A DNA stretch of 64,000 nt from NCBI RefSeq assembly GCF_020382885.2, contig NC_058513.1, positions 10,077,774-10,141,773 on the forward strand. The letters are read 5' to 3'. Position 1 is the first letter of the stretch. Each line of letters starts with the position of its first letter. The notes beneath the pieces were generated by a model, which did no database searches, was not told the origin of the DNA, and worked only from the letters and a program-made list of their open reading frames with translations. Origin of the DNA: Scatophagus argus (Eukaryota; Chordata; Actinopteri; Scatophagidae). Of this stretch, positions 18,019-60,300 are shown one piece after another. The position numbers were made by a program, and so were the translations under genes.

Positions 18019-18488
18019 GAATGTTTGTGCACACAATACCCACACCTATCTGGATATTTAATTTGCCAAAACCATTTTGGATTCAGAGTTATCTGGTGTA
18101 AAAGCAGCATCTGTAGATGCATCGTCTACATCGCCTGAGGTTTGTACCGTAAGTGTGGATATCTGCATATTGTGGGCATTGTAAACATTTTATTGGGTTA
18201 TCTGGGATTCATCAAAACCGCGACAATATTTTACGGGATCCCATTAGGTTCAAGGTATGTTACTTTTCCTTTTGTTTCTATTTTTTCTAGTCTTTTGGGT
18301 ATACTACTGTGTTCATATGCGTTTTTGTAGTGATATCCGAAAGCTATAAATTGCTAAAATTTGTTAGTTGGAAAGCTCAGAAGTCATCATGTTGGTTAGG
18401 AAGCATGTTGCTCGTGGAAAAAGATCTATGATGCAAAGACACTGATCAACACCTATTCTCCATTCATTCCAGTTATCAGTGTGTGAAG

Positions 18489-19652
18489 ATGTCCAAAATT
18501 GACCGTCTTAATGCCCGAGTGGGAGAGCTGCTGTCTCGAGCTGTGCAGGAGGTTCTGGAAGCGGTGAAGGAGACGGTTTCAGAGTACCAGGAGAAAACTG
18601 CCAATACCCTGCGAGAGAACCAGAGTCTGAAGAGGAGATTGCAAGAGCTCCAGGATACAGTAAAACTGGAAAACAATGGTAAGACAATATGATGCTTGTG
18701 TTCAGAGACTGTCAAGTAAAACTGTTGACTGATTGTCTTTTTTTTCCACCTTTGTTGCTATGCAGGATTAGTGGCACACTTTTCCCCTGCAGCCCAGGAG
18801 TCTGATGAAGAGCCTCATCTCATGCATCAGAAACAGAAAGAAGAGCTGGTAGAGGACACTGAATTCATCCCCTGTGAGAAGGACATGACAGTAATGTGTC
18901 CATCATATCCATTTGAGGACCTTGACTGCGAAGCATCCATCGCATCATTGGCCAGCCCCTGTCTTTCCCCTAGAGCTACAACAGGACTGCATCTAAGTGG
19001 TGATAACATGAGCAATCTAAGAACTCTTAAAACGGAGTCTGACAATGGACTGTCAGTGCCATTTTCAAACCACGTAGACCCTGTCACTGCAGTCACACTC
19101 TCTAAAAATGATCATAAAATGAAAGTAGAGCCAACATCTGACGAAGACGCCATGCACACCACAAAGTATTCATGTGATAATGCCGGTACGAGTTCTACAT
19201 CCTTACAGAAACTAAACCTAGAACATCCTCAAGCCAGTTCAGGATTGTGCGATGTCTTCAATCTGGACCAAAATGGCATAGAAGACCCGCTATCTCAAAG
19301 ATGCAACAAGACAAACAGCGTTGGAGCAGAAAAACAACACTCCATTCAAACAAACCCAAAAGAAAGAGGTTCGGGCTCAAAAGCGCTCCAGAGAAACGTT
19401 CGAAAACACTACTGCTGCTCGCTCTGTGGTCGCACCTTCAGACACGCAGGTGACTACAAGAAACACAGCAGGGTGCACACGGGGGAGAAACCGTACTGCT
19501 GCTCGGTGTGCGGGAAGAGGTTCAGTCAGTCGGGCTACCTCACAGTGCATCTGCGCTACCATACAGGAGAGAAGCCGTTTGGCTGCAGTCACTGTGGCAA
19601 AAGTTTTAGTCACTCGAGTAACATGAAGAAACACCAGCAAACTCATCTGTGA
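18489..19652 (+). CDS. C2H2 zinc-finger protein, tandem copy A
   Basis: Probable nuclear DNA-binding regulator. Two coding exons: 18489-18678 and 18766-19652, 358 residues. Exon 1 encodes a helical, coiled-coil-prone N-terminus beginning [15 protein letters not shown] and rich in heptad Leu/Val/Glu, a module I associate with many teleost zinc-finger genes. The middle is acidic and low in structure, with possible SUMO sites (MKVEP, LKTE). Three C2H2 fingers lie at the C-terminus (about residues 275-356) with TGEKP linkers; helix positions -1/3/6 are H/D/K, Q/Y/V, H/N/K. The ATG follows an acceptor at 18472. The paralog at 22550 has the same exon 1 length (190 nt) and phase. The orthologue name is not recognised. 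Confidence 0.9.
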
Positions 19653-20925
19653 GACTGCTGTTTTACACACATTGTTTCTATACATTTCATGGTAAAGATG
19701 TTTAGGGTTGAACAGTGGAAAAGTCTGTCTGTTTGTGAGCTACAAATGGAAATAATAAGTTATCATCTATGAGCCTTTATATGGAGGTCAGCTGAGCGTG
19801 TTGCAGTCTTATTTAGAAAATGATGTTGCTTCAAGAGAGGAAAAGTGGTGCCTTCTTTAATGGAAACACAAAGCTTATTATTGTGCACACGTTGTCTTTC
19901 AGATAATAATTCCCGTGGTTCTGCCATTCTGCTGTTTTGTCAGATGTTTAGAGATTCGTTTAATGTGTCGTTGCAGAGGTTCTTGTGGGGTCCAAATAAA
20001 TGGTGCTTCTTTATGTGTATTTTAATGCTTTGTATTTCCAATAAGATTGCTTTAGCTCAGCAATGCGCTAAGCAAATTGTTGCCTGCTGCATGAAACTTC
20101 ACACACTGAACTAAATGTCCCAGTATGATTTTGAAGTTGACCTGTCACAGGACAGATTAGTTATCAGTGATGAGATGTATTTCATTCTGGTGAGAGATAC
20201 CAGGTAGTGTAATTAATAATAAATTCTGCCGCTAGAGAATTCATTTCAGCATGGATAGTGTATGAATCATAACTCAACGATTTCTGACTCTTTACGGAGG
20301 CTTGGTGTATATACGTCCCTTACAACCTACAACTTAAAAGTGTAAGCATTACAAGATTTTAGAAGTTTTACAAGGTGAGTAACATTGCAGCACCTCATTG
20401 CATTCCGTCTCAGAGGGGATGACAAAACATACTTCTCAACCATCATTTCGCAATTACAAAATTTCCCTTTCCTTCCCAGTCGGTTGTGATATGTTTGAGC
20501 GTGATACTTGGTTTAAAGAAGTGCCTGCTTAAACAGATAATTCACATCACACCACATAGATTTCTTAGATACTTTCAGGGGCGAGCTACAGGACACACTC
20601 CTACAAGACTGAGATACAACAGGTTTGACAAGTAAGTTAGACTTTTCAGTAGCTATTGACGCTCAGTCTGGTACTATCATTAGTCAAAAATTAACATTCT
20701 TAATTAATGTATAATTAGCCTGTGCTTTGGCTTTAAGTTTGGATTTCAGTTAGAGCATGAAAAAAACACATTAAACTCAGGTTCACCATTATCTTTATTC
20801 GATATTTTCGAAAGGGGCTGGATGCTGAAGCACTAAACGGAAATGCATAAACTATGTGGTAGCCTGTGCTTAATCATGAACCTTTCTGATTGTGTTGTAG
20901 AATTTCTGGAGGCGAAGTTGTCATA
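19653..20925. other. Intergenic between zinc-finger copy A and the RhoG-like gene
   Basis: Zinc-finger 3' UTR up to about 20.0 kb, then AT-rich sequence. An acceptor TTGTAG at 20895-20900 puts the last part (20901-20925) in the 5' UTR of the RhoG-like gene. No further genes are seen. Confidence 0.6.
19995..20000 (+). terminator. Poly(A) signal of zinc-finger copy A
   Basis: AATAAA 343 nt after the stop codon of the upstream zinc-finger gene. Confidence 0.5.
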
Positions 20926-21498
20926 ATGCTGTCTATCAAGTGTGTGGTTGTTGGAGACAGTGGAGTTGGAAAGACCTACCTACTCTCCACCTACATCAAA
21001 AAGGTTTTCCCTAAGGAGTACATACCATGTTTCTTCGACACATACACTACCCAGGTTCATGTTGACAGCCAAACTGTCAGCCTGACTCTGCAGGACACTG
21101 CTGGCAGAGAGGAATATGACCGTATTCGCACCCTCTGTTACGGTCAGGTCAGTGTCATCATCATCTGCTTCTCCATTGCTAACCCAACATCCTATGATAA
21201 TGTCAAGCGCAAATGGCATCCAGAAGTGAAACACTATTGCCCTAATGTGCCCATCCTCCTTTTGGGAACTAAGAGTGACCTACGAGATGATCAGGGGGTC
21301 CTGGAGAAACTGAGAGAGTCGAATCAGACCACAATCACCCAGCAGCAAGGAACAATGATGGCAAAGCAAATAAAAGCTGTTAAATATCTTGAGTGTGCGT
21401 CGATCAACCTGGATAGACTGGACGAGGTGTTTGATGAGGCTGTACGTGCTTTTCTCAGACATTCATCTACCACCAATAAACCCTGTGTGCTCTTGTAA
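20926..21498 (+). CDS. Atypical RhoG-like small GTPase
   Basis: Rho-family protein of 190 residues in one coding exon, as in RHOG. Closest remembered match is RhoG ([36 protein letters not shown]). The length and numbering equal Rac/RhoG, so substitutions can be read directly: Gly12 to Ser (GDSGVGKT), switch-I Thr35 to Cys (YIPCFFDTY), Trp56 to Gln, Gln61 to Arg (DTAGREEYD), and CSAL to CASI in the base-binding loop. The P-loop Lys16/Thr17, DTAG and TKSD are kept. The tail ends CVLL, a geranylgeranylation-type CAAX box, but the usual basic stretch before it is missing. The start is the ATG at 20926, after an acceptor at 20900; the open frame upstream of it lacks another ATG. Family is sure; nucleotide cycling is doubtful. 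Confidence 0.92.
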
Positions 21499-22549
21499 TT
21501 TGAGGTTGCATATAAATAATTTGGATGTGGCAAAGATGATCTTTGTATGTGCATTTCTTTACATTTCTGTATATCTTTGTGGCTTAATGTGATTGTAAAT
21601 GGGAGTAGCACTGTGCCTCCTCTTTATTTTATTTGTCAAAACATTAATATTGGTTGGTTGTACGTTTATTACTTGTTAAACCTTTATTCTGAAAAACTAC
21701 ATCACAGAGGACGTGATTCAGTTCCGCTTCCGGGGGTTTCGAGTTGTTATGTTACGTTCTGATTTGTGCTTTTTAATATATTAGTTTTTTTTTTCATTTA
21801 TTTATTTTTAAGTCAGATTAGTTGGAAATTAATTAAAAAAACAAACGTCTTGCTAACACCATAACCGCACTGTGAGTTTGTCGGAAGTTTAAAGGTACGG
21901 AGTTAGCTAATGTTGCTAACGTTATCTATCCACATTACAAAATATCCACTAACTTCAGTTTGCAGGTAGAGCAGTGCTTAACGGGCTTATATGGGGACTG
22001 ACACTAATTCAAGTGTTGTCATAAAACACGTGTTATAAATATACTTGCTTTGCAGCTGATATCATATGATTATAAACAGGTAACAGAACACTTACTGTAG
22101 CGTGGAAATGCTGACCTGACACGGAAATTTAGTAAACATTTCACTGTGATGGCAGTTGACTTGTCTGAGTGAAGATGACTGTGCCACCAAAATATCAGAC
22201 CAGACTATGTATGTAATGGGTTTAAAAGGCTCAGGCAAAAAGGGATCGTCATTAACCAAACGTTTGCTATGAAGTGTAACTTCTTACTTGTTTATATTGA
22301 ATGTGTTTGTCCTTTTAACTCATCCGCTAACTTCAGATTGCAGACAGTTTCTCCAGCTTCCAAAGTCACTTATTGTCTGTTGATGAATGGACTTATAGCA
22401 GAGAGTTTATTTGCGTCATTGTTTCCATACATTGCTTGTGAAACATATCCTAATAATTATTAGGTCGTGTTATGTACATGCTGCTCACTTTGCAGAGGGT
22501 TTTGCATAAGCTGTCCACAGTTATTTCCTACACCTGATTTTATTTCAGG
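21499..22549. other. Intergenic between the RhoG-like gene and zinc-finger copy B
   Basis: AT-rich. TTAGCTAA/GCTAACGTTA words near 21902-21923 may mark the zinc-finger B promoter. An acceptor TTTCAG ends at 22548, one base before the zinc-finger ATG, so the 5' UTR is spliced. No coding content is recognised. Confidence 0.55.
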
Positions 22550-23776
22550 ATGTCTAAACTTGAACGTTTGAATGCTCGCGTGGCCAAGCTACTGACTGTG
22601 GCTGTGCAGGAGGTTCTGGAGGTGGTGAAGGAGACGGTGTCCGAGTACCAGGAGAAAACTGCCAGAACACAAAGAGAGAACAAAAGTCTGAAGAGAAGAC
22701 TGCAGGAGCTCCAGGACAAGATAACAAGTGACAACAATGGTGGGTAACAAGTGTTGTTTCCTTATGCCATTTATCATTATAGATGTGACTATCCTATAAT
22801 GAGAAGTTACTCATTCATTACCTAATAATATTTTTGTCTTAATTTTACAGCTGTAGCATCTTCTAGAAGTCCATCACCTGAAGAACAAGATGACACAGAA
22901 AATCAAGGATCGTTCAAGGATTCAGGACTTGCTTTGAGGCAGAACTCAGAACTTCCTCTCACAGAGAAAAAAACAATAAGCAACCACAAATCTGATCATG
23001 ACACGGAGCAGGAATTGGAACAACAGGAGAGCTACAGTAACCCTGAATCACGAGCTGAGTGCAGCTTGATGCAAGCAACAGAGCACTGCAAAGCACAACC
23101 AGAGGAGGCAATGATAGTCCACACATCACACAGTGTAAACAGAGACATCGGCACTGTCTCGCCCAATAATGCATGCACCTCCCATCCCAGCTCATCACTT
23201 GGGGTAGACTTGGCTGTTATCAAAAGAGAGCCTGAACCAACAGACTGCACAATATCAGAACCACCATGTTTTCAAGAACAGTATAGTGAATGTGTGGATT
23301 TAAGCTGCAACTCTTCTCGTTACAACTCTGCTGAGGTACACAGACCACAAGTTGGTGAAGAAACATGCAGACTTGTCTTTGTCCAATCAAATCATGTCAT
23401 ACCTAGGAGGCACGGACTCACGAAAAGCAACAGGGCCACATTCGACGGGAGAAAAATCAGGATGGAGCACTTCAGGACAGATGGCTCACACTCGTGCATT
23501 GTGTGTGGAAAGACATTTAGCAGGGTCGGGAACTTGAGAATCCATCAGCGTTGTCATACAGGAGAGAAGCCGTATGGTTGCACACAGTGTGGGAGGCGTT
23601 TTAGTCAGGCAGGAGACCTGAAAAAACACAAGAGGGTCCACACGGGGGAGAAACCGTACTACTGCAATCAGTGCGGCAAAAGCTTTAGTCGGGGGGAGAA
23701 TCTGAAAAGACACCAGAAGATCCACATTGGACAGATTTTACAGTTACAGCAAGTGTGGAGGGAGCAACAGCAATGA
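22550..23776 (+). CDS. C2H2 zinc-finger protein, tandem copy B
   Basis: Paralog of the gene at 18489. Exons 22550-22739 and 22851-23776; 371 residues. Exon 1 (MSKLERLNARVAKLL...) is nearly the same helical module as copy A, with equal length and splice phase. The central region is acidic and diverged, with an IKREPEP stretch that fits a SUMO consensus. Three C2H2 fingers lie at about residues 280-360 with TGEKP linkers; helix positions -1/3/6 are R/N/I, Q/D/K, R/N/R. The contact residues differ from copy A at most positions. The chain ends in a Gln-rich tail. Likely a sequence-specific nuclear regulator; target unknown. Confidence 0.9.
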
Positions 23777-35999: not shown

Positions 36000-36851
36000 A
36001 TGTCTAAGTTAATTAACATCACTGACTACTCTAATACAACTGCTGATGAGTGTGAACCTGGGAATTTTATCTTCTGGACATGTTTCACCATAGTTTCCTC
36101 TCTTTTTGGTTTTCCTGGAGCTGTTGCCATACTTTTGAACATGTTTTGGAAAGGAAGAAAAGGAGCAACATTCACCCCAAATGATGTCTTTACTTTAAAT
36201 ATTTCTATCATGGATCTGGTTTACTTCTCCTTTACTCCTCTAGAGTTGTATACTACCAGTGTAGGCCATCCTAACTTAGTGTATTTAGCATTTATTTCCT
36301 TCTTGTACTCATTCACTTTGTGTGGAAGGCCTCTCTATATAACCTGTATCTGTCTGGACTGCTATGTGGCTGTGGTTCATCCAATTATTTATCGTGAAAA
36401 AAAGAGTCTGACTCCCAGGATCCTGGTAGCTGTTGGTGTTTGGACTGTGACTGTTGCTTATGCATGTTGTTTTGCTTTTGGACTTGAGAGAGAGCTTGAG
36501 ATGAATCCGGTATCCTTTTTCATTTTGACTCTCCCTGTTATTGCTTTCTGTGATTTATCCATCCTCTGGACTCTGAAGAGATCGAATCCTGGAGGACGAA
36601 ATGTCCACCCGCAGAAGAAGAGGGCTCTGCAAATCATCATCAACAACTTTGTTGTTTCCATTATATCCTATCTTCCTGCAGTAATAACTTGGGTTCTGTT
36701 CCAGGTTCTGAAATTCAGCAAAAGTAAGTTTTTTTGTCTTTTTTTTCTTTCAATGATATGCATCACTGTGACAGGAAATACTGTTTCAGTCATGTTGCAT
36801 TTGAGCAACTTAGGAAAACTGGACTGGCTTAAATGTGGGAAGAAGAAATGA
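36000..36851 (+). CDS. Atypical intronless class A GPCR (P2Y-like)
   Basis: 283 residues in one exon with seven hydrophobic segments: about 25-49, 60-82, 98-120, 138-160, 170-190, 214-236, 247-270. The N-terminus has NIT and NTT glycosylation sites. TM3 reads LYITCICLDCYVAVVHPI, clearly rhodopsin-class, resembling nucleotide/lipid receptors with DRYxAVVHP. The DRY Arg is Cys, the loop between TM4 and TM5 is very short and lacks the usual Cys, and TM7 has no N/DPxxY (GNTVSVMLHL instead). It ends WLKCGKKK, a short basic tail. I do not recognise a named orthologue; ligand unknown. It may be a fish-specific receptor that signals oddly or not at all. The start is the first in-frame ATG. Confidence 0.85.
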   Translation: MSKLINITDYSNTTADECEPGNFIFWTCFTIVSSLFGFPGAVAILLNMFWKGRKGATFTPNDVFTLNISIMDLVYFSFTPLELYTTSVGHPNLVYLAFISFLYSFTLCGRPLYITCICLDCYVAVVHPIIYREKKSLTPRILVAVGVWTVTVAYACCFAFGLERELEMNPVSFFILTLPVIAFCDLSILWTLKRSNPGGRNVHPQKKRALQIIINNFVVSIISYLPAVITWVLFQVLKFSKSKFFCLFFLSMICITVTGNTVSVMLHLSNLGKLDWLKCGKKK

Positions 36852-38022: not shown

Positions 38023-38695
38023 TATACATATCAATGTTTTTAATTTGTTTTATTATTCCTGTGTTTTAATATTTATAATTAGTATTGTTCTTATTTTTAT
38101 TTGTAAGCATTATGATCGTTATCATTATCAAAAATTATATCATACAGACGTACCATAACATCGATCTAGGTAATGCGCACGTCAATAGATCAATGAATCA
38201 CGTGACCTTGTGACGTACATTTAATACAGGAAGTAAATTGAACTGTATCATAACGTTCGGCTTTCATAATAAAAGCCACCAATAAGTCGCTTGTCACTTT
38301 ACAATATCGGTACTGTATCTAACAAATAAGTGGGCTAACAAAACTAGAAGTATTTATCCAAACTAAATGGAAAGATCAGACTGCACACGTGATACTGTAG
38401 CTGAAACTCGATATTTTATCGCACAAAACAAAATCTTCCATAAACTTCCACTTGTAAAGATTTTGTTTTGGAAATGACAGCCGGAAACGTTGCGTGGGAT
38501 GAAACTTGATCCTAATCAAAGAGCAGGGGAACAGTGGACATACACTGTTCTAACTGTAATACATTTCAAGCCTGGTTTGTAGCATCCAACTAGGAATGGC
38601 TGTCTAGTAATGAGGACAGTCGGCTGTGGAAGCCATCGTTGCCGCTGTCGTCCCGCCGTGCCTTTGTGAGCTCTGACTGGCCGAGACCCTCCGCC

Positions 38696-41600
38696 ATGGC
38701 CTCAGCGTTACCCCGCTGCACATCTGTCAGACTCCCCGCTGTGGCCACTGTCGTCTTGCTCCTGATGTCGTTGAGCACTGTACGGTCCTCTCAAGGCGAC
38801 AAGGAGCCGGTTTATCGAGACTGTGTTAAACAATGTGTCCGGACCAACTGTACCGGAGCTCGGCTAAGGGGCTTTCAGTCCTCCCAGCCGCAGTACATGG
38901 CGCTGACAGGTGAGTTGTTGTTGTTGTTGCCAGGTTAACTTAAGCTAACTTAGCTTGCTAGCAGTCCGTAACTACATTTCTGAACAGTATACCCACTGCT
39001 CTTACCTACAATGCATCGTGCTATTTTGATACATTTGATAAATGTATCCCTGGACTATCTTAACATTCATATGTTTACTCATCCACGTTGCTGCTTTGTG
39101 GTGAAGCTCATGGTTGCAGTGCGATATTTAACGCGGTGGATTTTCTCACCTTTGACCATTCATGAAACATGTCAGGCTTTTTCACGCACTGAAACAGTTG
39201 AAAGCCTGTTTCTCCGGTTGTACAAGGTGTCACAAAGGTAATATTGTAACTCCACCCTCGGCCCGTCTTTAACAACTGTATCGTGTGTCTGTGTTAGAGT
39301 TAAAAACACAATAAACGTACGCATCATCTAATCCAGTTTCACTCATTTCAGACGTTTGAAAAGAGGAAGCAGTCGATACAGTGTAATCCAGCCAGGAAAG
39401 AAAACCTTAAAAATACTGCCACCTTGTTTTCTTTTTTAGGGCTACCACTAACCATTATTTTAATTAATGAAATGCTACATCTTCAAAATGTCATATTAAT
39501 GTCTTTGCTCAACCAGTTTTCTGTTCATCTACTTTTCCCTTTATTTGCTTATGGTCACAGTTCTGTACATTCAATCAAAACCTTTTTCAGATACATTTTA
39601 TTGATGAGTATTTGTACTCATTACCTAGAAGGCTAACTGAACCTGACCCTCTGACCTGTGCCAAACCCTGTTCATGGCCCCATCTCCTTCTCTTTGTTCC
39701 TGTGTTCCAGGTTGGACATGTCGTGATGACTGTCGCTATCAATGCATGTGGACTACCGTGGGGCTCTACCAGGCCGAGGGGTACAGGGTCCCACAGTTCC
39801 ACGGCAAGGTTTGTGCTTCTTACAGAGGCCAGTGTGTGTATCACACTGAGCTTCATCCCAAAATCTTAAGTTTTTCTGCTTAAGTGGCTCTGTAAACAGT
39901 GCTTCAGTCTTTCCTTGAGTGAAATGTTATCTCTTTTATTTCTCACAGTGGCCGTTTGCACGCTTCCTGTGTTTCGAGGAGCCAGCTTCTGCCCTGGCCT
40001 CTCTACTCAATGGCTTGGCTTGCCTTCTCATGCTGCTGCGGTATCGGAGCATGGTGCCACGCCAGAGCCCCATGTACCATACCATCAACGCCTTCTCTCT
40101 GGTTTGTTAAATTCAGCCCCTGTCTGAGTGAGATGGAGAGAATACACCAATACTAAAATGTCTTTCCACTACATTGCAACAATTTTACCATGCGTTCTTA
40201 ACAAGAGCCCATGTGTGTTTCTTTAGGTATCTCTTAATGCCTGGTTCTGGTCCACAGTGTTTCATACCCGGGACACCTATCTCACTGAGGTAATAATAGT
40301 TACTGGATACTTGTAAAGATACATCAAGTGATTTTTACTAGACAGAAAAAAGAGCAGCATGGGCATCTTTTCAGAGTTTTGTTTCTCTATTCAGAACTGA
40401 TGTAAAATTAATAATCTCTGACCTTTCAGGCCTGCTGTGTTCTACTTGTTCCTGAGAAAGATGTCTTCAGTCAGCTCGCAGCTGGGGCTCAATATGCAGA
40501 GCAGTGTACCAAAATAATGAGCTGACATTACTGTAATTAGATTAAAAAACACTCAATGCAGCTTTCTTGCATGCTAACTGGAGAACTGCTAAAATACCTT
40601 TCCAGCTGCAGAACTCCCCCTGAGATGAGCGTTTTTTCTGTTTTGTTGGCTACTAACTTCTTTAATGCCACTACTGACAAGCCCACCAGCTGTGTGCAGT
40701 ATATTTTCTGCAATATCCTACGGGCACAAATGTTTTCTCTTGATCTTGATTTCTGTTCTAAGTAAATGTGTTTTTGTCTGTATGTGTCATTCTTTTGCAG
40801 AAAATGGACTATTTCTGTGCAACAGCTGTCATTCTTTACTCAATCTACCTATGCTGTGTCAGGTAAGGTCTGAAACGGGTGGCCTACGAATGTCTCCATT
40901 TGTCTCATGATAGAAGATGAAAATATGGTCGCAGAAGAACCAAAATCACATTCAACTCTGTTAATGTTTGAGCCTGGTTAACATTTCTGTCCAATGTTTT
41001 CCATGATTGTTATGGTAAGGCTGAATTAAGATTTACTTGATGATGTCAAGGAGCTGGCAAAACAAACAGATCTTCTTGCAAATGTAAATGTTACAATGCT
41101 GTGTACCCCTCCTTCATCAGAACATTGGGTCTGAGGCGACCTGGGGTGTCCAGCATGGTGGGAGTCCTGCTCATCCTGGCCTTTACGTCGCATGTGTCCT
41201 ACTTGACCTTTGTCAGTTTCGACTACGGCTACAATATGGCTGCTAACGCCACCATCGGTACAGAAAATACACAAAAGTCACATGAAAGCTCATATTTAGT
41301 TGGTCATAGTAACATATTACACAGTTGTGTAATTTTGAGCACTTTTGTCTTATTAACATCTCAATGCAAGTAGTTTATCATAATCAATTTTACATTTTTT
41401 ATTCAGTCTGCAGTTTGAACAACTCAGAATATCACAGATAAACCTCTGCCAAATGATGTACTGTATTAAGATGAGTTTCAATGTAGTGACTTATCCTTCA
41501 AATGGCTTATCTTGTGCTTTTAATGTTTTTGTCTGTAAAGGCATGGTGAACCTCCTGTGGTGGCTGTGTTGGTGCTGGCAGAACCGGCGGACCTTGCCGT

Positions 41601-51300: not shown

Positions 51301-54300
51301 TGGATTCTGATGCTTTCAAACTGTAGTGTATTCTGATGCAGTGGTGTTGTCTGAGGTAGGAGTGAGGAGTTCATATCTGTGTCTTCAGTGGAGTATGGAT
51401 CCTGTTCTGCTTGTCTGTTGAGCAATACCTGTTTTTTCGTCCTCGGCTGTAGAACGAAGGGGAAGAAAGAATGTGTTCAGGAAGGTTGGGAGAAATTTGA
51501 AGTTTATGCAACACACATCGTTAGGATTAGCAGTGTATTAGAAATAGCAATGACATGTTAAATCTGAGGGATAATAAACTGACAGAGAAAGTCCTGTTGG
51601 ATCACCTAGTTCTGTTTTTGTTAAGTTCTGACGGGATCTGATCCATTAGAGGAGAGAGTCAAACCTGGGAATTTTGTTAACTCTTCTAGTGGGTCAAACT
51701 GATGGATTTTTTTCCACCATGGATCAGGCTAACTCCTGCAGTAGCATCGCTGACACCACGTTTCTGTCATTTCCCGCACACACTCTCTAGTAAACACACA
51801 TGCACACTCCCTGTGCTAACTGGCATGCTGCCACACACAGGTGTGGTTTCAAGATGGCTTTCAGTTTGCAGTGTCAAGAAGTACGCTGGTGCAAAAGTCG
51901 CCACATCCTCTCTGGTAGGAAACCAAGTTAAGATACACTCAGGCACTATTACAAGGTACGGCCTGAAGTCACTAAAATAGCCAACAACGTCACTGGGGAA
52001 AGACCACTGAACTAGAAATTAGCTCTGCTCTGTTTTATATGATTGTATAGTTAATGCCTTTGAGTTTTAGTCTGTTGCCTTGGGTTCTGTGAATTATGAA
52101 CAGTATTCTTAACATTTTTTTTTGTGAATTTATTAATTAAAAATTAATAACTTGAATTAAGAAAATTTGTGGGACTGAATAAAATTCATTTCTTTCATGT
52201 CTTTTCTTTGATTAGTTGATATTAAGCAAATTACAGGATGCTTACTAACTTGATGCAAGAAAAGATTGGCAATATTCTTTTCCTAATATCAGAATTGGCA
52301 AACGAGATACCACTTCTTAAAATATTAGTATAGGTAAGAGCTGAAGTAAAGAAAACATTAAACTAGCATTACGTCAGAAGGCAACACTGTTTACAGCTTC
52401 TCGAAAGCCAACAATTAAACATTCACACCCACTTCATGCAGTGATTGGCCAGATATGCAATGTAAGCAAGGTGCAAACGTCCTTTCTCAGTTTCTTCCTC
52501 AGTCAACGTTGTGTGTACAAAGAAGTGCAACACTATGACTGCCCTCCAGGAGAGACAGTGTCTATACAGTGTCTGTATTGTGTCTCATGCTGTTTATGAT
52601 GGCAAGCTTTTCACCTTCAGACAAGGCTGACAGCATGTTCTACAAAGTGGTTTGCTCAATTCAGGTTCCTATGATGCATTAAAACCCTCAGCATATATGC
52701 TGAAACACTGAATGAGATCACAGTGAATGCTGTGTCCTAACCGGACTCAGAATTATCAGAATGAGGACAACACACAGACAAAACCTCAGACAGACAAACA
52801 GACAAACCTGGACAGTGAAGTTTCCATAGCCATGAAACTCTGTGCAGAAACCAGCACATTTAACTGTGTGTGTTCACTTGGATGTCAGTGACAATCACTG
52901 GTTGTGTGGGTGACCCTTTGGACTCAAGTGCCGGAGGGTCACTGGTTGCTGATGGGTCTTTCAACAAGACTGAACTGCAACCTGGTTTCTCTTGCCTGCC
53001 TCCCCCAGAACAGCCATGTGTGTCATCTTTTAGATATGCAAAGACACATTCCTGTGAAATGACACTTTTCCAGAGTCCAAAAAGAGTTGGGCAACAACTC
53101 ACGGAGGAAGAAATGACTGTGGGAACTGGACCTGGAGGTGAAATGTTTCAAACGGCTTGTTTCTGAAAGCAGGTAATAAAGACATGTAGTGGGTGAATTT
53201 GAAGGAGGAGGACAGGGATTATCACGTGACGGTGAGCAGATAGAGCCAAGTAAGTGATAAAAGAGAGTGTTTTAGGCCGTGAGGATGGCGGGGTGGGCTG
53301 CTCCTCACAAGGCCACACATACTACACACAGGCGCACACAGCCGTTGCTGAGAGACTTTTGGAGAACAAACAATGAGGGAATGAAAGGAGAGGAAGCTGA
53401 GAGCTGGCTTTACACACACGTGTTGGAAATGGAAAATCTGCTCTGTTGTACTTTCTGTTACGGCACATTAACCTAATCCCCAGAGCTGGAGCTGTCTCTG
53501 TTGTTTGTGTGTGTGTGTGTGTGTGTGGTAGTTTGTGGCGACTCAGGGAGTCAGTTTCTGTTTATGTCTTCTGTTTTACCATAAAGATTTAAATGGTGGA
53601 GAATAAAAGCAGGACTTCCTTCTTGGTAAGACGTGTAAAACTATTTTCCATGATGCCATCACTGAAGACGGCAGTGATTAGTCATTTGATTTGATATTTG
53701 ACACAAGCTGCAAAGCCTGGGTGTGTATTTTTGGCCGCCACTCTGTTAATCACAGACCCGTTTGCTGCATTAGCTTGCTGTCACATCTTAATGCGGACCT
53801 GATTTATGCTTTATGACCCAGTGCTTCTTAGCAGAGGTGCAGGAGTTTTGATGTGGGTCAAATTGCTCAGCCATCACCAGGAAACTTAACACGTGGCAGA
53901 CGCATTTTGTGATAAGAGCATGCCTTTCCTTAACTATGTTGAACCCCAGTGTTTCATAAAAATCACCGTCTTCTGCCTGCCTGCCAGCTCTTCCTGTTCC
54001 TCTGATGATGTATCTGAGTCCTTCCTGAGGGACAGAGATAGCACAGGGGCTTCAATCGGGAAAAGTGGGTTGACTATTGAAGGGCTGTTGGAAGGGAGCC
54101 AGAGGAAGTCATTTATAACCCCAGCAGAGGAGGGACTGTCCGCTGCGTGACTGCCTGCTAAAACATGGGAGCTATGTGTGTGCAACAGCCCCCCATGAAT
54201 TGTAGGACTGTGTGACCCTGAATGTAATGCTGTGTGTGACCCGCTGTGGGGAATCTGTGCTGTCTGCTGCCAGTGGAAAATATATCATAAACGCTGAGAG

Positions 54301-57300
54301 ACAGACAGAGGCAGTGCAGATGGTGTGCTTTTCAGAGTACCCATTCAAGGCCACTTGTAAACAGTTACACCGTCAAAATATGTGAAAGTCCTTATAGTCA
54401 TCGTCATTGCAATCTCTTATATATTCTGCCCAGAAAGACTAAGTCGGTGTTAAGACAGTGACACTTGAAACCTCTGTAATGAGATTCTTTATTTAGATTT
54501 CCATCTTTGCTTAGATTATATATATATATATATATATATCTTTGCTGAGCTCATGTGAACAGATGAGGCAGAACAATCACCAGGGTCTGTTCAGGATGTG
54601 TCCCACAGAAAACTGAGTGTGTTGCTGTAGAAATTGTAAATATATTATCTACCTGCTGAATATTCTTTCAGTCAGTCGGTCCCAAACAGCTTCAGACAGT
54701 TTCTAATGAGGCTGAGTGAATGGAATTTAAAAATAAATAACTATAAATAGATAATTTAATCGTGATCCCATTCAGGAATTGAATAAAACTAAGCAAGTTA
54801 AGTAAGGGGGAGGTGAAGGGGTGCCTTTTTCTGAGCTTGGTCTGAGGGGAGGGCCACAGTCTCAGACCTTGAAAAGCCTTGGTTTAATCCATAAAATGTA
54901 AGAAAACAATGAGGAAATCTCTCAGTTTTACCAGATGTTCCCAAGGTGAAGTCTTTAAACACAAACACAGTTTCTTTCCCCAAGCAGTCACTCTGTTGAA
55001 GTGTCATCATCATCTACCTCACTAATTTAACAACACAGTACCATTATTATCTGTCTGTTGCACAGCACTGCCTTGCACTGTATTTATTTATTTAAATCCT
55101 AGTCTACCTACACTGTCACTGCACTACTCCACAGATTCACTGCTACTGTATATAGTATTTTTTTCTATTTTTTATCTTTATCTTATTGTATATAGTACCT
55201 TTGTGTTCTTACTGCTAGGTGTTTGTTTTTGTACTCGAGAGCAAAGTCTAACCGGAGTCAAATTCCTTGTTTGTACACGCAAACTTGGCCAATGAAGCTG
55301 ATTCTGATTCTGATTCTGATTCTGATTTAAATCCCTTCTTTTGTCTGACCAACAGTCCCACCCCAAAGATATTTAACCCGTAATGATATAAAGTGGAGAA
55401 AATGAGCAAATTCTTAATTCTGAGAACCTGAAATATTTGATAATTTTTCTGAAATAGTGGATTAATTTTTAGTTAGCTAATTGTTTCAGCACTAAATAGA
55501 GCATGTGCTCATTGCTCAAACTTACAAAATTGCAACATTAAAACAGAATTGGCTTTAAAAAACGCATAAATGTTGAGCCACAGAAAAGGTTTTTATTTTT
55601 ACTGTTTTACATGCCGAATGAAGTCAGGGTCATATGTTATCTGTGTTGCAGTGTGTCTTGGTACAGACATGAAGCTGGCTCTACCCTCCAGCCTGGAAAA
55701 TCACTACGAGACCCTGAGGCTGCTCTACACTGGCTGCCAGGTCGTTCATGGCAACCTGGAGATTACGCACCTTCATGGAAACCCTGACCTCTCCTTCCTT
55801 CAGGTAAAAGACTTTGTGTGTGGGTTTTTAAGGTGGGGCTGGTGTTTTTGGGTGGGCTGTTACACAAAAAAAAATGGCGTTTGAATGGAAACCAGTTTAA
55901 TCTTGACATGAAATAAGAACAAAACAAAGACAAAAGGTAGATGTTACCTGTTTCTGTTGCCATAACAGCATCATGTATTTTTTTTGTCTCTTTGCCTCGT
56001 CTTCTTCTTCAAGGGGATCGTGGAGGTGCAGGGCTATGTGCTTGTAGCCCATGTGTCTGTGAGTCTGATCCCTTTGGACAACCTTCGGATCATAAGAGGC
56101 AGCCAACTGTACAACTCCAGCTACGCACTGGCTGTGCTGGATAACACTCTGGGCGGACAGGGGCTCAGGACGCTCCGGCTTCGTAGTCTCACAGGTCAGA
56201 TACCAGTACAGCAGAGCTCAGAGTTGATGTCCAAACCCAGTATGACCTGTCTGGACTGGACTGGAACTATGACTGCATGTTTCAGTTGTTTTGGCTGATT
56301 CAGTTTATCAGCATCTTCACATTTAAAACGTTAAAGCTTTTAAGAGAGTTTGGGGAAGACCTGGAAATGGTGAGGAATTCCGTGGCCTCCTTTCATCCAG
56401 CATTTGTTGTATCTATATATTGTGTTCCTTACAGAGATCCTGTTGGGTGGGGTGTATATGTGGGGGAACCCCCACCTGTGCTTCCCAGACCCCCAGAACA
56501 TCACCTGGAGGGACATTTTGGACGAGCAGAACATCCATGCCAGGCTGTACCGGCTGCAGCCTCGGGCCCCTAAATGTGAGCACCTGATTGACTGATTTTT
56601 AAATGTTATTGGAAAAATTTCACTTGTGTCACAGTAAGCACAAAACAGGAGACAGGGGCAAAAGCATTTCTGTGAGCGTATGGAAAAGATAGACCAGATT
56701 TAAAACTTACTATACACAATTACAAATGGTCAAACAATAAGGGCCACAATGGAATTTGAATGAAATATCTCATTAACTACTGGATGGATTGCCATAAACT
56801 GCTTTGCTACACATATTCATGGTCCCTTGAGGATGAATACCACTAAATTTGGTGATCCCCTGACTTTTCCTCTTGTGCAACAAATGGGATTAAAAATTGT
56901 GGTTTTGGCTGAAAGATCTTGACAACAAATTGGGGGAGGAGGGGACTACACCAAGTCACTGTGTGAAGTGGGTGTAAATGTTGGATTGTCACTTTTGGGA
57001 AATTACAGAAACGGTTGAATGCAGCCCCCTGTCTGTTCTGACGTTGGAAAGGTGTGAGTCTAGGGGCTTTCCAGAGCTGTTTGACTATCCAACAAGCAGT
57101 TTATGTGTTTAAGTCAACTGGCATCTCAAACATAACCCCAGAGCCGTTTGCATAAGTGTATGCTAATTTTATTTCCTCTTAAATTGTGTTGGATACATGC
57201 TAGGCTCTTCTTATTTGTTCTTGTTGGGTTTCTCCTGGTACAGGTCCAGATTGTTCTGCTGCCTGTGGGGAAAGCTGCTGGGGAGAAACTGCACAAGACT

Positions 57301-60300
57301 GCCAGACCCGTGAGTTATGTGCACTCAGTATAACACTGTTTGGTTTTCATTGGAAAAAGTCCAGAGCAGGTGATAATTTTCATTTTGTAATGTCTGTTCA
57401 AAGTGACCCATATTAAATGTGGGTCTAGCTGTCAGCGGTGTAAAGGTCCCCTTCCTAATGACTGCTGTCACACGCAGTGTGCTGCTGGATGCACCGGACC
57501 TAAAGACTCAGACTGTCTGGTAAATCACAAACACACACAAGCTTATCATATTGTTGCGTTTTCTTATCTCCGGTGTAATCTGCTTGTGTTGTCAGTGATC
57601 CCTCTTTTCTGGAGTAACATATTTCCTCCCACCTGTTCTCTTCAGGCTTGCCGACACTTCAACGACAGCGGTGTATGTAAGGAGAATTGTCCTTCGCCTA
57701 CTATTTATGACCCCGTCACCTTTCAGACCAAACCCAACCCAAACAAGAAGTTCAACTTTGGAGCCACCTGCGTCAAGACGTGTCCTTGTGAGAACTTATT
57801 TTGAAAAAAAGAAAACTTAGGAGGAAGGAAGTTAGCACACAGTACTCAACTTGTTGCCAGTATGCATTTTCACTGCTGCACCTGATGTTTAAGTATCTTA
57901 CTATAGGGGGCCTTGATAAGGGTAGATGCTGATGGCAGAAAGAGAAATAAAGATTATTTATTCATTTTCTTTGCCAAGATTTCTACACACACTCCAGGGA
58001 TTCAAACTTGGCAATGTCACAGCCACAGTCCTGCTTCTGTAATGGTTCAGGCTACCATAATGCCATGTCAGCATACCTAATTAATTTCCTTTTTCTCTGA
58101 AATTGCCCTTTGAACACTTTGTCTTCGTGTCTGTAGATAACTATCTGGCTATGGATATGGCCTGTACTTTGGTTTGTCCCAAAGCCAACCAGGAAGTTAT
58201 CATCACCCAACCTGATGGAATGGAGTCACAGAAATGTGAAAAGTGTGAAGGAGACTGTCCTAAAGGTGGGGATCATTGTTTCTTTGTGGGTACATTTGAG
58301 TTAAAACGTCACATGTTGTTGACATGCACTCAATAGCCCCTTTATTATGCTCACCTGTGCATCTGAACATTAGTGCATATGATCAGACAGTCAATTGGCA
58401 CAAACCCAGTGCATGTAAAGGCATACAGACACAGGCATGCTCAAGACATTGAGTTGTTCAGAATAAACACCAGGATGGGATGAAATGTGATGGAAGTGAT
58501 TTTTACCATGGAATGATTAAAGATAGGATGCGTTGAGTATCTCAGTAACTACTATTCTCCTAGGATTTTAATGCATAATAGTCTTTTGAGTTTACAGGGA
58601 TTAGTGAAAAATGAAATGATAAAAAAACTGTGTGTGGGAGGGGGGACTCAAAACTTTCAGAACTTCAACAGGAAACAGTTACGTGTCATATGATTACTGA
58701 CGTTCTGGATTAATTTAAGTTGAGCGTTCTTCACATGCATGACAAAGAGCTTCAGTGCAGGTGATTATGATACATACTGATGCTCTGATGCATAGCATGA
58801 AGACAGACATGTAAAGTGAACCAACCTGTTTCTGCCATACCCTGTTATGTTTGGCTTTTGCCTCTTGCATCAGCATTGATAAGTGATTTCTACATGGCGA
58901 AACAATGAATCCTTTCTTCATACTTCAGTTCTAGAGTTAAGTGGATCCATTCTAGGTAGTGGGTTAATTTGGTTATCTTGGTTAATTCAGTAATTCTGCG
59001 TTGGGAGAGAGTTCTCAGCTATTACATAAGTTAATTAAATTACAGTTTATTTTCTGGAGTTAAGATAAAGTGATTAACAGCCATTGTCGTGTTTTGTACT
59101 GCAGGGTGTTATGGCCTGGGTATGGACAACCAGGGCGTCGTGGACAACAATGGCATAACCATGGTAACATCCTCTAATGTGGAGCAGTTCAACAAGTGTA
59201 AGAAGATTTTTGGTAGTCTGGCCTTCCTTCCTCAGAGCTTTGCACGGTAAGAGATGGGCAAGACCTTAGAAACAACAACAAAATGAAATAATTTAAACTT
59301 AATAATGTGCATGTAACCACACATATATGCTTGAAGTTTATTCTGCCACAGAGCAACGTCCCTTCTGTTTAGCACTTCAAATATTTGAGTTTGCAGAAAC
59401 ATCTGTGGAAGATTCTTTGTGTAAGTCCAGGGGGAATGTTGCCACCCAAGCCAAACCCTTTAGGTTACTGTACTCAGACATGAATGTTCTTCACTTTTAA
59501 TACTGTCTTTGTGTCAACAAGAAAGAAGAAAGAGAAATGTGTTCATGTATTCGTTATGATTGTTCAATTGAAAATGAAGTCTAATTGAAACAAAGTGTGC
59601 CGAATAACAATGGTAACGAGTAAATGGTAGAATTTCTGCACTGTAATAATATATACATAACTAATCAGCTGAGTCACTAGTCCCTCTGTGGACGTTAACT
59701 GAAAGGCTGGTTGATCAGTCTACGTGACACAAACTGCTGCCGAGATGCCAGGTCCCTGATAAATGATTTTGCGTAGGCCAGTTATTCACAATGAAAGTGT
59801 GAAATGTAAACACAAACTTGAGATAACCTGCACCACCTGAGATTTTATCAGAAGGAGAAAATCATTATGTTCCAAATCAAAAATGAAATGATCTAACTCC
59901 TTCAGTTGTGTATTAACTTATTTGAACCTTATGTTGTCACTGTCCAGGGACCCTGTGACCAACACGTCAGGCTTGACCCTCAAGCAGCTGAGTGCCTTCA
60001 AGAAACTAGAGGAGATTACAGGTACTGATAGTACATATTGGTGTTTGCTGCAGTAAGTGTTTATTAAGAAAAGAAAATCTGCTTATTCATTTTTGTAAAA
60101 TCATAAGATTCAGAACTGCAGTTTTGCCATTTCACTAAAATTTTCCACATAACCCAGCACAGATGCCTGGTATACAGAGCAGCCTATGTCTGCTCTTTTC
60201 AAGTGTTTTAATGTTTTTGTCTGATTTTTGCTCTGCAGGTTATTTGTACATTGATGCCTGGCCAGAAGAGTGGAATAACCTGAGCGTGTTTGAGAACCTG

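Follow-up and report, generated by a model that had tools for sequence, protein, structure and literature searches.

Within the 64,000-nucleotide stretch of Scatophagus argus DNA analysed here (the window), a single open frame resembles RhoG but departs from it at residues on which the GTPase switch depends. This raises the question of whether the gene encodes a Rho protein that works without switching or a duplicate that is losing its function. Judged by its sequence, the gene is genuine and intact, a RhoG duplicate that has evolved fast and whose switch has been dismantled. If functional, it would be a further member of the atypical Rho proteins; if not, it is an ordinary relaxed duplicate. 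Publications are identified by their PMC numbers and are cited from excerpts of their text.

Gene, frame, and identity

The coding sequence lies on the plus strand at positions 20926 to 21498 and is open from ATG to TAA, with 190 codons plus the TAA, no internal stop, and no coding intron. The 190-amino-acid product matches the Pfam Ras family (PF00071; E = 1.3e-44). Among the best 60 of 805 phmmer matches to known structures, human RhoG (6uka) ranks first (237.6 bits, E = 6e-70, residues 1 to 190), ahead of the top rows for Rac1 (226.6 bits) and Cdc42 (198.2 bits). Identity is 112/190 with human RhoG and 114/190 and 119/190 with two RhoG genes found elsewhere in the same genome, here called C12 RhoG and C14 RhoG, whereas four longer Rho-family exons of this genome reach only 33 to 38% identity.

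The protein thus resembles the three RhoG sequences in its identity (59 to 63%), in a near-gapless alignment, and in its CAAX box (CVLL or CILL). The earlier note had described the alignment as gapless up to residue 66; this understated it, as the sole gap against RhoG is one codon in the tail. The Rho insert region is present (residues 120 to 140, gapless against RhoG). The CVLL box at 21484 to 21495 (plus strand) would presumably be geranylgeranylated under the CAAX rule. Downstream, the sole match to AATAAA or ATTAAA in 21499 to 23000 is an ATTAAA at 21832 to 21837 (plus strand), which may be a chance occurrence.

Judged by its top match and by the tree described below, the gene is a RhoG paralogue by descent but is not a canonical RhoG. 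This bears out the paralogy proposed in the earlier note, which was also right that the frame is intact and that the CAAX box is kept.

Related copies and descent

A search of the 570.7-Mb assembly (48 contigs), in which 150 of 153 candidates were scored, revealed at least three RhoG-type genes. Besides the window gene, these are C12 RhoG (C12:15159166-15159735, minus strand), which shares with the window gene an intronless coding sequence, and C14 RhoG (C14:22974707-22975685, minus strand), whose coding sequence is in three pieces. Both are canonical at all 12 compared sites that are altered in the window gene.

A nine-row tree, in which the Rac rows lack their first residues and the Cdc42 rows lack the tail, places the window protein within the RhoG rows (fork 91/88, not starred) and as the sister of C14 RhoG (support 93/91, below the tool's star threshold). 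Its end branch is 12-fold longer than that of C14 RhoG (0.60 versus 0.049), and the placing of so long a row is unsure.

A Frag1-family gene, PGAP2-like in look, adjoins C14 RhoG. Human RHOG adjoins PGAP2 in the same manner, and C14 is for this reason probably the ancestral RhoG locus. The two coding introns of C14 RhoG lie after codon 43 and at about codon 100, have GT-AG ends by eye, and are both missing from the window gene; the first of them is rich in (GT)n. With the C12 and window copies lacking coding introns, this is an apparent case of intron gain in a vertebrate gene. The C14 introns look like later gains, as they are missing from C12 RhoG and also from the coding sequence of human RHOG.

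No tandem copy of the gene was detected in the window by tblastn (three other matches, best E = 2.6). Peptide-pattern scans of viral and bacterial/archaeal genome contigs, which are collections not meant to hold fish, found no relatives.

The 5' region contains a candidate untranslated-region intron at 20632 to 20900 (plus strand), with a donor-like gtaagt at 20632 noted by eye and an acceptor-like ttgtgttgtag ending at 20900. An acceptor-like AG precedes the ATG by 25 nt in the window gene, 29 nt in C12 RhoG, and 23 nt in C14 RhoG. When segments chosen by hand were compared with mononucleotide shuffles, the alignment score across this site was reached by 1/2000 shuffles for the window and C14 genes, 0/2000 for the window and C12 genes, and 36/2000 for C14 and C12.

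We considered a retrocopy of RhoG as the origin of the gene and regard it as unlikely, given that the three genes resemble each other across the acceptor-like site and that the frame is open, even though the window gene has neither coding intron of its C14 sister. Because a retrocopy would not carry the end of an intron, copying at the DNA level is indicated, and the gene is probably a DNA-level duplicate of the C14 RhoG lineage that has kept the 5'UTR splice site.

Altered and retained residues

Relative to RhoG, the window protein carries G12S, C18Y, T35C, V36F, N39T, W56Q, Q61R, P73G, S158A, and A159S. The earlier note had listed S12, C35, Q56, R61, CASI, and CVLL, all of which are present as claimed; C18Y, V36F, N39T, and P73G are additions to its list. 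The P-loop (20953 to 20979, plus strand) has G12S, A13G, and C18Y but keeps G10, G15, K16, and T17. In switch I, which reads CFFDT (21028 to 21042, plus strand), T35C, V36F, and N39T surround a kept F37. The segment QDTAGR (21091 to 21108, plus strand) has W56Q and Q61R on either side of an unchanged D57-T58-A59-G60, and the G5 motif (residues 157 to 160; 21394 to 21405, plus strand) has gone from CSAL to CASI through S158A, A159S, and L160I. The G4 motif, TKSDL (residues 115 to 119; 21268 to 21282, plus strand), confers guanine specificity and retains T115, K116, D118, and L119. The protein therefore has none of the G12, T35, W56, Q61, and SAL that are canonical in RhoG and Rac, and its S12 and R61 represent the loss of Gly12 and Gln61 that is typical of the atypical Rho class.

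Among 96 columns that are identical in human RhoG, C12 RhoG, and the RhoA of this genome, the window protein keeps 75 and changes 21: G12S, A13G, C18Y, I21S, T35C, V36F, A42T, W56Q, Q61R, L67I, S71C, P73G, T75V, N76S, S86N, V113L, P136T, A144M, S158A, A159S, and G164R. A retained fold and 75/96 Rho-invariant columns are what an ordinary cycling GTPase would show if its changes compensated each other. However, Gly12, Thr35, Trp56, and Gln61 are all lost together, and in RAC3 the single changes G12R and Q61L each highly suppress hydrolysis (PMC9473360, in excerpt); we consider normal cycling very improbable.

We compared 50 switch and G-box columns (10-17, 28-40, 57-76, 115-119, and 157-160 in Rac numbering) with the rest of the protein. 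In these columns, 15 positions of the window protein depart from human RhoG, compared with 1 in C14 RhoG and 2 in C12 RhoG, in agreement with the earlier claim that residues of the GTPase cycle are altered. For the remaining 128 columns, counted up to residue 178, the corresponding numbers are 54, 32, and 28. Lineage-unique changes fall within the 50 columns more often in the window protein (14/42) than in the two paralogues (2/25; P = 0.02). Between C14 and C12 RhoG, the 50 columns are strongly protected (2/50 changed versus 42/140 elsewhere; P = 6e-5), whereas they lack significant protection between the window protein and either C14 RhoG (14/50 versus 57/140; P = 0.13) or C12 RhoG (16/50 versus 60/140; P = 0.24).

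Nine core residues that hold the phosphate, Mg, and guanine (10, 15, 16, 17, 28, 57, 60, 116, and 118) are nonetheless kept 9/9, with a chance of 0.038 given 14/50 columns changed, for a list that was picked after the alignment had been seen. As read from the alignment, the pattern is that of a lost cycle and a retained nucleotide pocket.

T35C, W56Q, and P73G each require both the first and the second codon position to change. Other key codons are at least two bases away from both paralogues, a count that may in some cases include an older silent change. The need for two-position changes suggests that the switch losses are not all fresh single mutations or the latest event in the history of the gene. 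Basic residues of the tail are also reduced. The earlier note had described the basic tail as gone, which holds in comparison with human RhoG (KRGR) and C12 RhoG (KKNTKK) but less so in comparison with the C14 sister, whose own tail (SKRP) is thin.

Constraint on the coding sequence

The window gene has 42 unique amino-acid changes compared with 10 in its C14 sister (P = 9e-6), although unique changes at fourfold sites are about equal (9/33 and 8/33), which argues that the amino-acid excess does not come from a higher mutation rate. Identity between the two genes at codon positions 1, 2, and 3 is 0.74, 0.76, and 0.41. A codon model rejects omega = 1 (P = 0.0005), on saturated distances. The parsimony count of unique changes at positions 1 and 2 versus position 3 gives 61/380 versus 44/190 (P = 0.05), and the contrast with fourfold sites gives P = 0.14. 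A branch-specific codon model favours a separate omega for the window branch (P = 0.046), which we read for direction only, as its value (0.03) is unreliable: distances ran into their upper limit (t about 20), and GC3 differs (0.53, 0.83, and 0.67).

These data bear on the somewhat unlikely but serious alternative that the gene is a decaying duplicate in which constraint on the switch was lost, so that it drifts with little or no function and is open only through youth or weak constraint. The 12-fold longer branch would be expected of such a gene, as would a codon-position contrast that reaches only P = 0.05. Furthermore, the functional columns have changed as freely as the others, since 14/48 conserved switch columns are altered compared with 35/105 other conserved columns (P = 0.71). 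Against decay, the frame has no stop, for which neutral simulation gives a probability of 0.035 to 0.065 at about 100 to 130 mutations (substitutions only, with indels left out of the model), and it has no indel relative to RhoG except the one tail codon. The rejection of omega = 1, subject to the saturation noted above, and the sparing of the nine core nucleotide residues also speak against it.

Overall, the codon comparisons support constraint that is relaxed or shifted rather than absent, and they lend modest support to purifying selection on the window branch. The support for the earlier description of the gene as selected and not dead is accordingly modest too.

Proposed mode of action and published precedents

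The reading that we favour, to which we give slightly less than an even chance, is that the window protein is an atypical Rho derived from RhoG that would bind nucleotide, be unable to cycle, and work in the manner of RhoH and Rnd. Intact GxxxxGKT, DTAG, and TKSD motifs would allow the Rho G-domain fold and guanine nucleotide binding to persist. The loss of both Gly12 and Gln61 would make GTP hydrolysis slow, and the loss of Trp56, together with the altered G5 loop, would let nucleotide exchange proceed independently of Rac-type GEFs. The changed switch I (C35, F36, and T39) may no longer easily adopt the usual effector-binding form. Since hydrolysis, GEF exchange, and switch I would all be affected, the output of the protein may be set by the amount made and not by switching. 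It could then act stoichiometrically at membranes, anchored by prenylation of its CVLL tail, and bind some of the partners of RhoG.

RhoH and Rnd1-3 are the proposed parallels. In excerpts of the literature, RhoH is described as having no Gly12 residue, a changed G3 motif, and no GTPase activity and as being set by its expression level (PMC13236570), and it has a CaaX box (PMC2565660) to which the CVLL of the window protein is comparable; the likeness is one of description. Rnd1-3 are presented as atypical Rho proteins that escape inactivation by GAPs (PMC13236570). By best match, the window protein appears to belong to neither group, as its closest matches among the best 60 of 805 are RhoG and then Rac1; the nine-row tree was built without RhoH or Rnd rows. 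Should other fish turn out to conserve the altered residues, an unswitchable Rho protein would have originated independently once more, this time from the RhoG line.

RAC1 C18Y and N39S are dominant-negative alleles. A table of alleles expressed in zebrafish lists both under microcephaly (PMC7762611), and the window protein has the same change at C18 (C18Y) and a change at the same site at N39 (N39T). Head and neck tumours carry RAC1 A159V, C18F/Y, and N39S; in the same excerpts, C18 and A159 are placed around the G-box, and N39S is found to raise tumoroid growth but not invasion (PMC11816149). W56 contacts Tiam1 (PMC7174510). One wild-type protein thus unites changes at sites that are linked singly in human RAC to tumours or brain malformation, and it is thus a natural experiment on the mutual compensation of such changes.

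As read from these sites, the direction of the effect is mixed. Other changes at the sites of G12S, Q61R, and A159S are activating, and T35C, V36F, and N39T are in the effector loop. In NRAS, the Q61R form is predominantly in state 2 and the addition of T35S restores the inactive state 1 (PMC12116848, in excerpt), in which effector affinity is much reduced (PMC5379185). An effector domain nevertheless drew the T35S/Q61R protein back toward state 2 (PMC12116848), which suggests that effectors may still bind when Thr35 is changed. In RAC1, a basic motif in the tail governs RhoGDI1 binding, with its position mattering more than the number of charges (PMC8622166, in excerpt), and the thinned tail of the window protein may therefore lower extraction by GDI.

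The same sites could instead indicate a pseudo-GTPase that is free of nucleotide or binds it weakly, in which Mg-GTP is no longer bound stably, owing to C18Y, T35C, and the changes in the P-loop and G5, and the fold serves only as a scaffold or decoy. C18Y, T35C, and the G5 loop are at the nucleotide pocket (for the place of C18 and A159, see PMC11816149). For RhoA, section 5 of PMC5379185 states that G14V, which is the Gly12 site, hinders the binding of both nucleotide and effectors, and such an effect would favour a nucleotide-poor protein, opposite to a GTP-locked one. However, GKT, D57, G60, K116, D118, and F28 are all kept, and we judge this alternative unlikely.

A more specific reading is a fish-specific antagonist conserved within its clade. 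It would be permanently loaded with GTP (S12, R61, and S159), with switch I disabled (C35, F36, and T39) and no GEF-selecting Trp56, and it would tether partners of RhoG, for example ELMO-DOCK, to membranes but would not activate Rac. If true, this would be a case of activating and effector-blocking mutations naturally joined in one wild-type protein, although we regard it as quite doubtful.

Extra or RhoG-like fish genes are named in print (PMC8268205, PMC9961154, and PMC9697846, in excerpt). Zebrafish rhogd is a hub gene alongside coro1a (PMC9961154), and a large yellow croaker "RhoG-like" gene is tabulated among those whose expression changes in hypoxia and acidification (PMC9697846); the comparison of these two with the window gene is by name and not by sequence. 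No description of a RhoG with an altered switch was found among the matches listed from the open-licence literature.

Neighbourhood of the window gene

The window gene is accompanied by a LIM/paxillin-type gene, a PKMYT1-type kinase gene (by eye), a PH-domain gene, and others, and these differ from the neighbours of C14 RhoG. No recognisable neighbour is common to the window and three stretches around C14 RhoG, in one of which (L060) 6083/9901 bases read N. The use of synteny for dating the duplication was tried and set aside. The PH-domain exon has other matches at C16:19824690-19824992 (63%) and C4:12763847-12764161 (52%) and none on C14, and the kinase exon lacks a near duplicate, its next match by E-value having E = 1e-11 and 40% identity.

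Two C2H2 zinc-finger genes on the same strand flank the RhoG copy, at 18432 to 19652 and 22829 to 23776. A rhodopsin-family receptor is encoded in a single frame at 36000 to 36851 (7tm_1, E = 2e-12). Some 17 kb beyond the RhoG copy, a Per1-family gene that is PGAP3-like by eye (38594 to 41400) neighbours ERBB2 (55900 to 58400), an arrangement that also occurs in human 17q12, where PGAP3 and ERBB2 are neighbours. A window frame at 53276 (66 amino acids) weakly matches, at the protein level, a stretch near C14 RhoG (L050:4683-4835; E = 5e-6, 36%).
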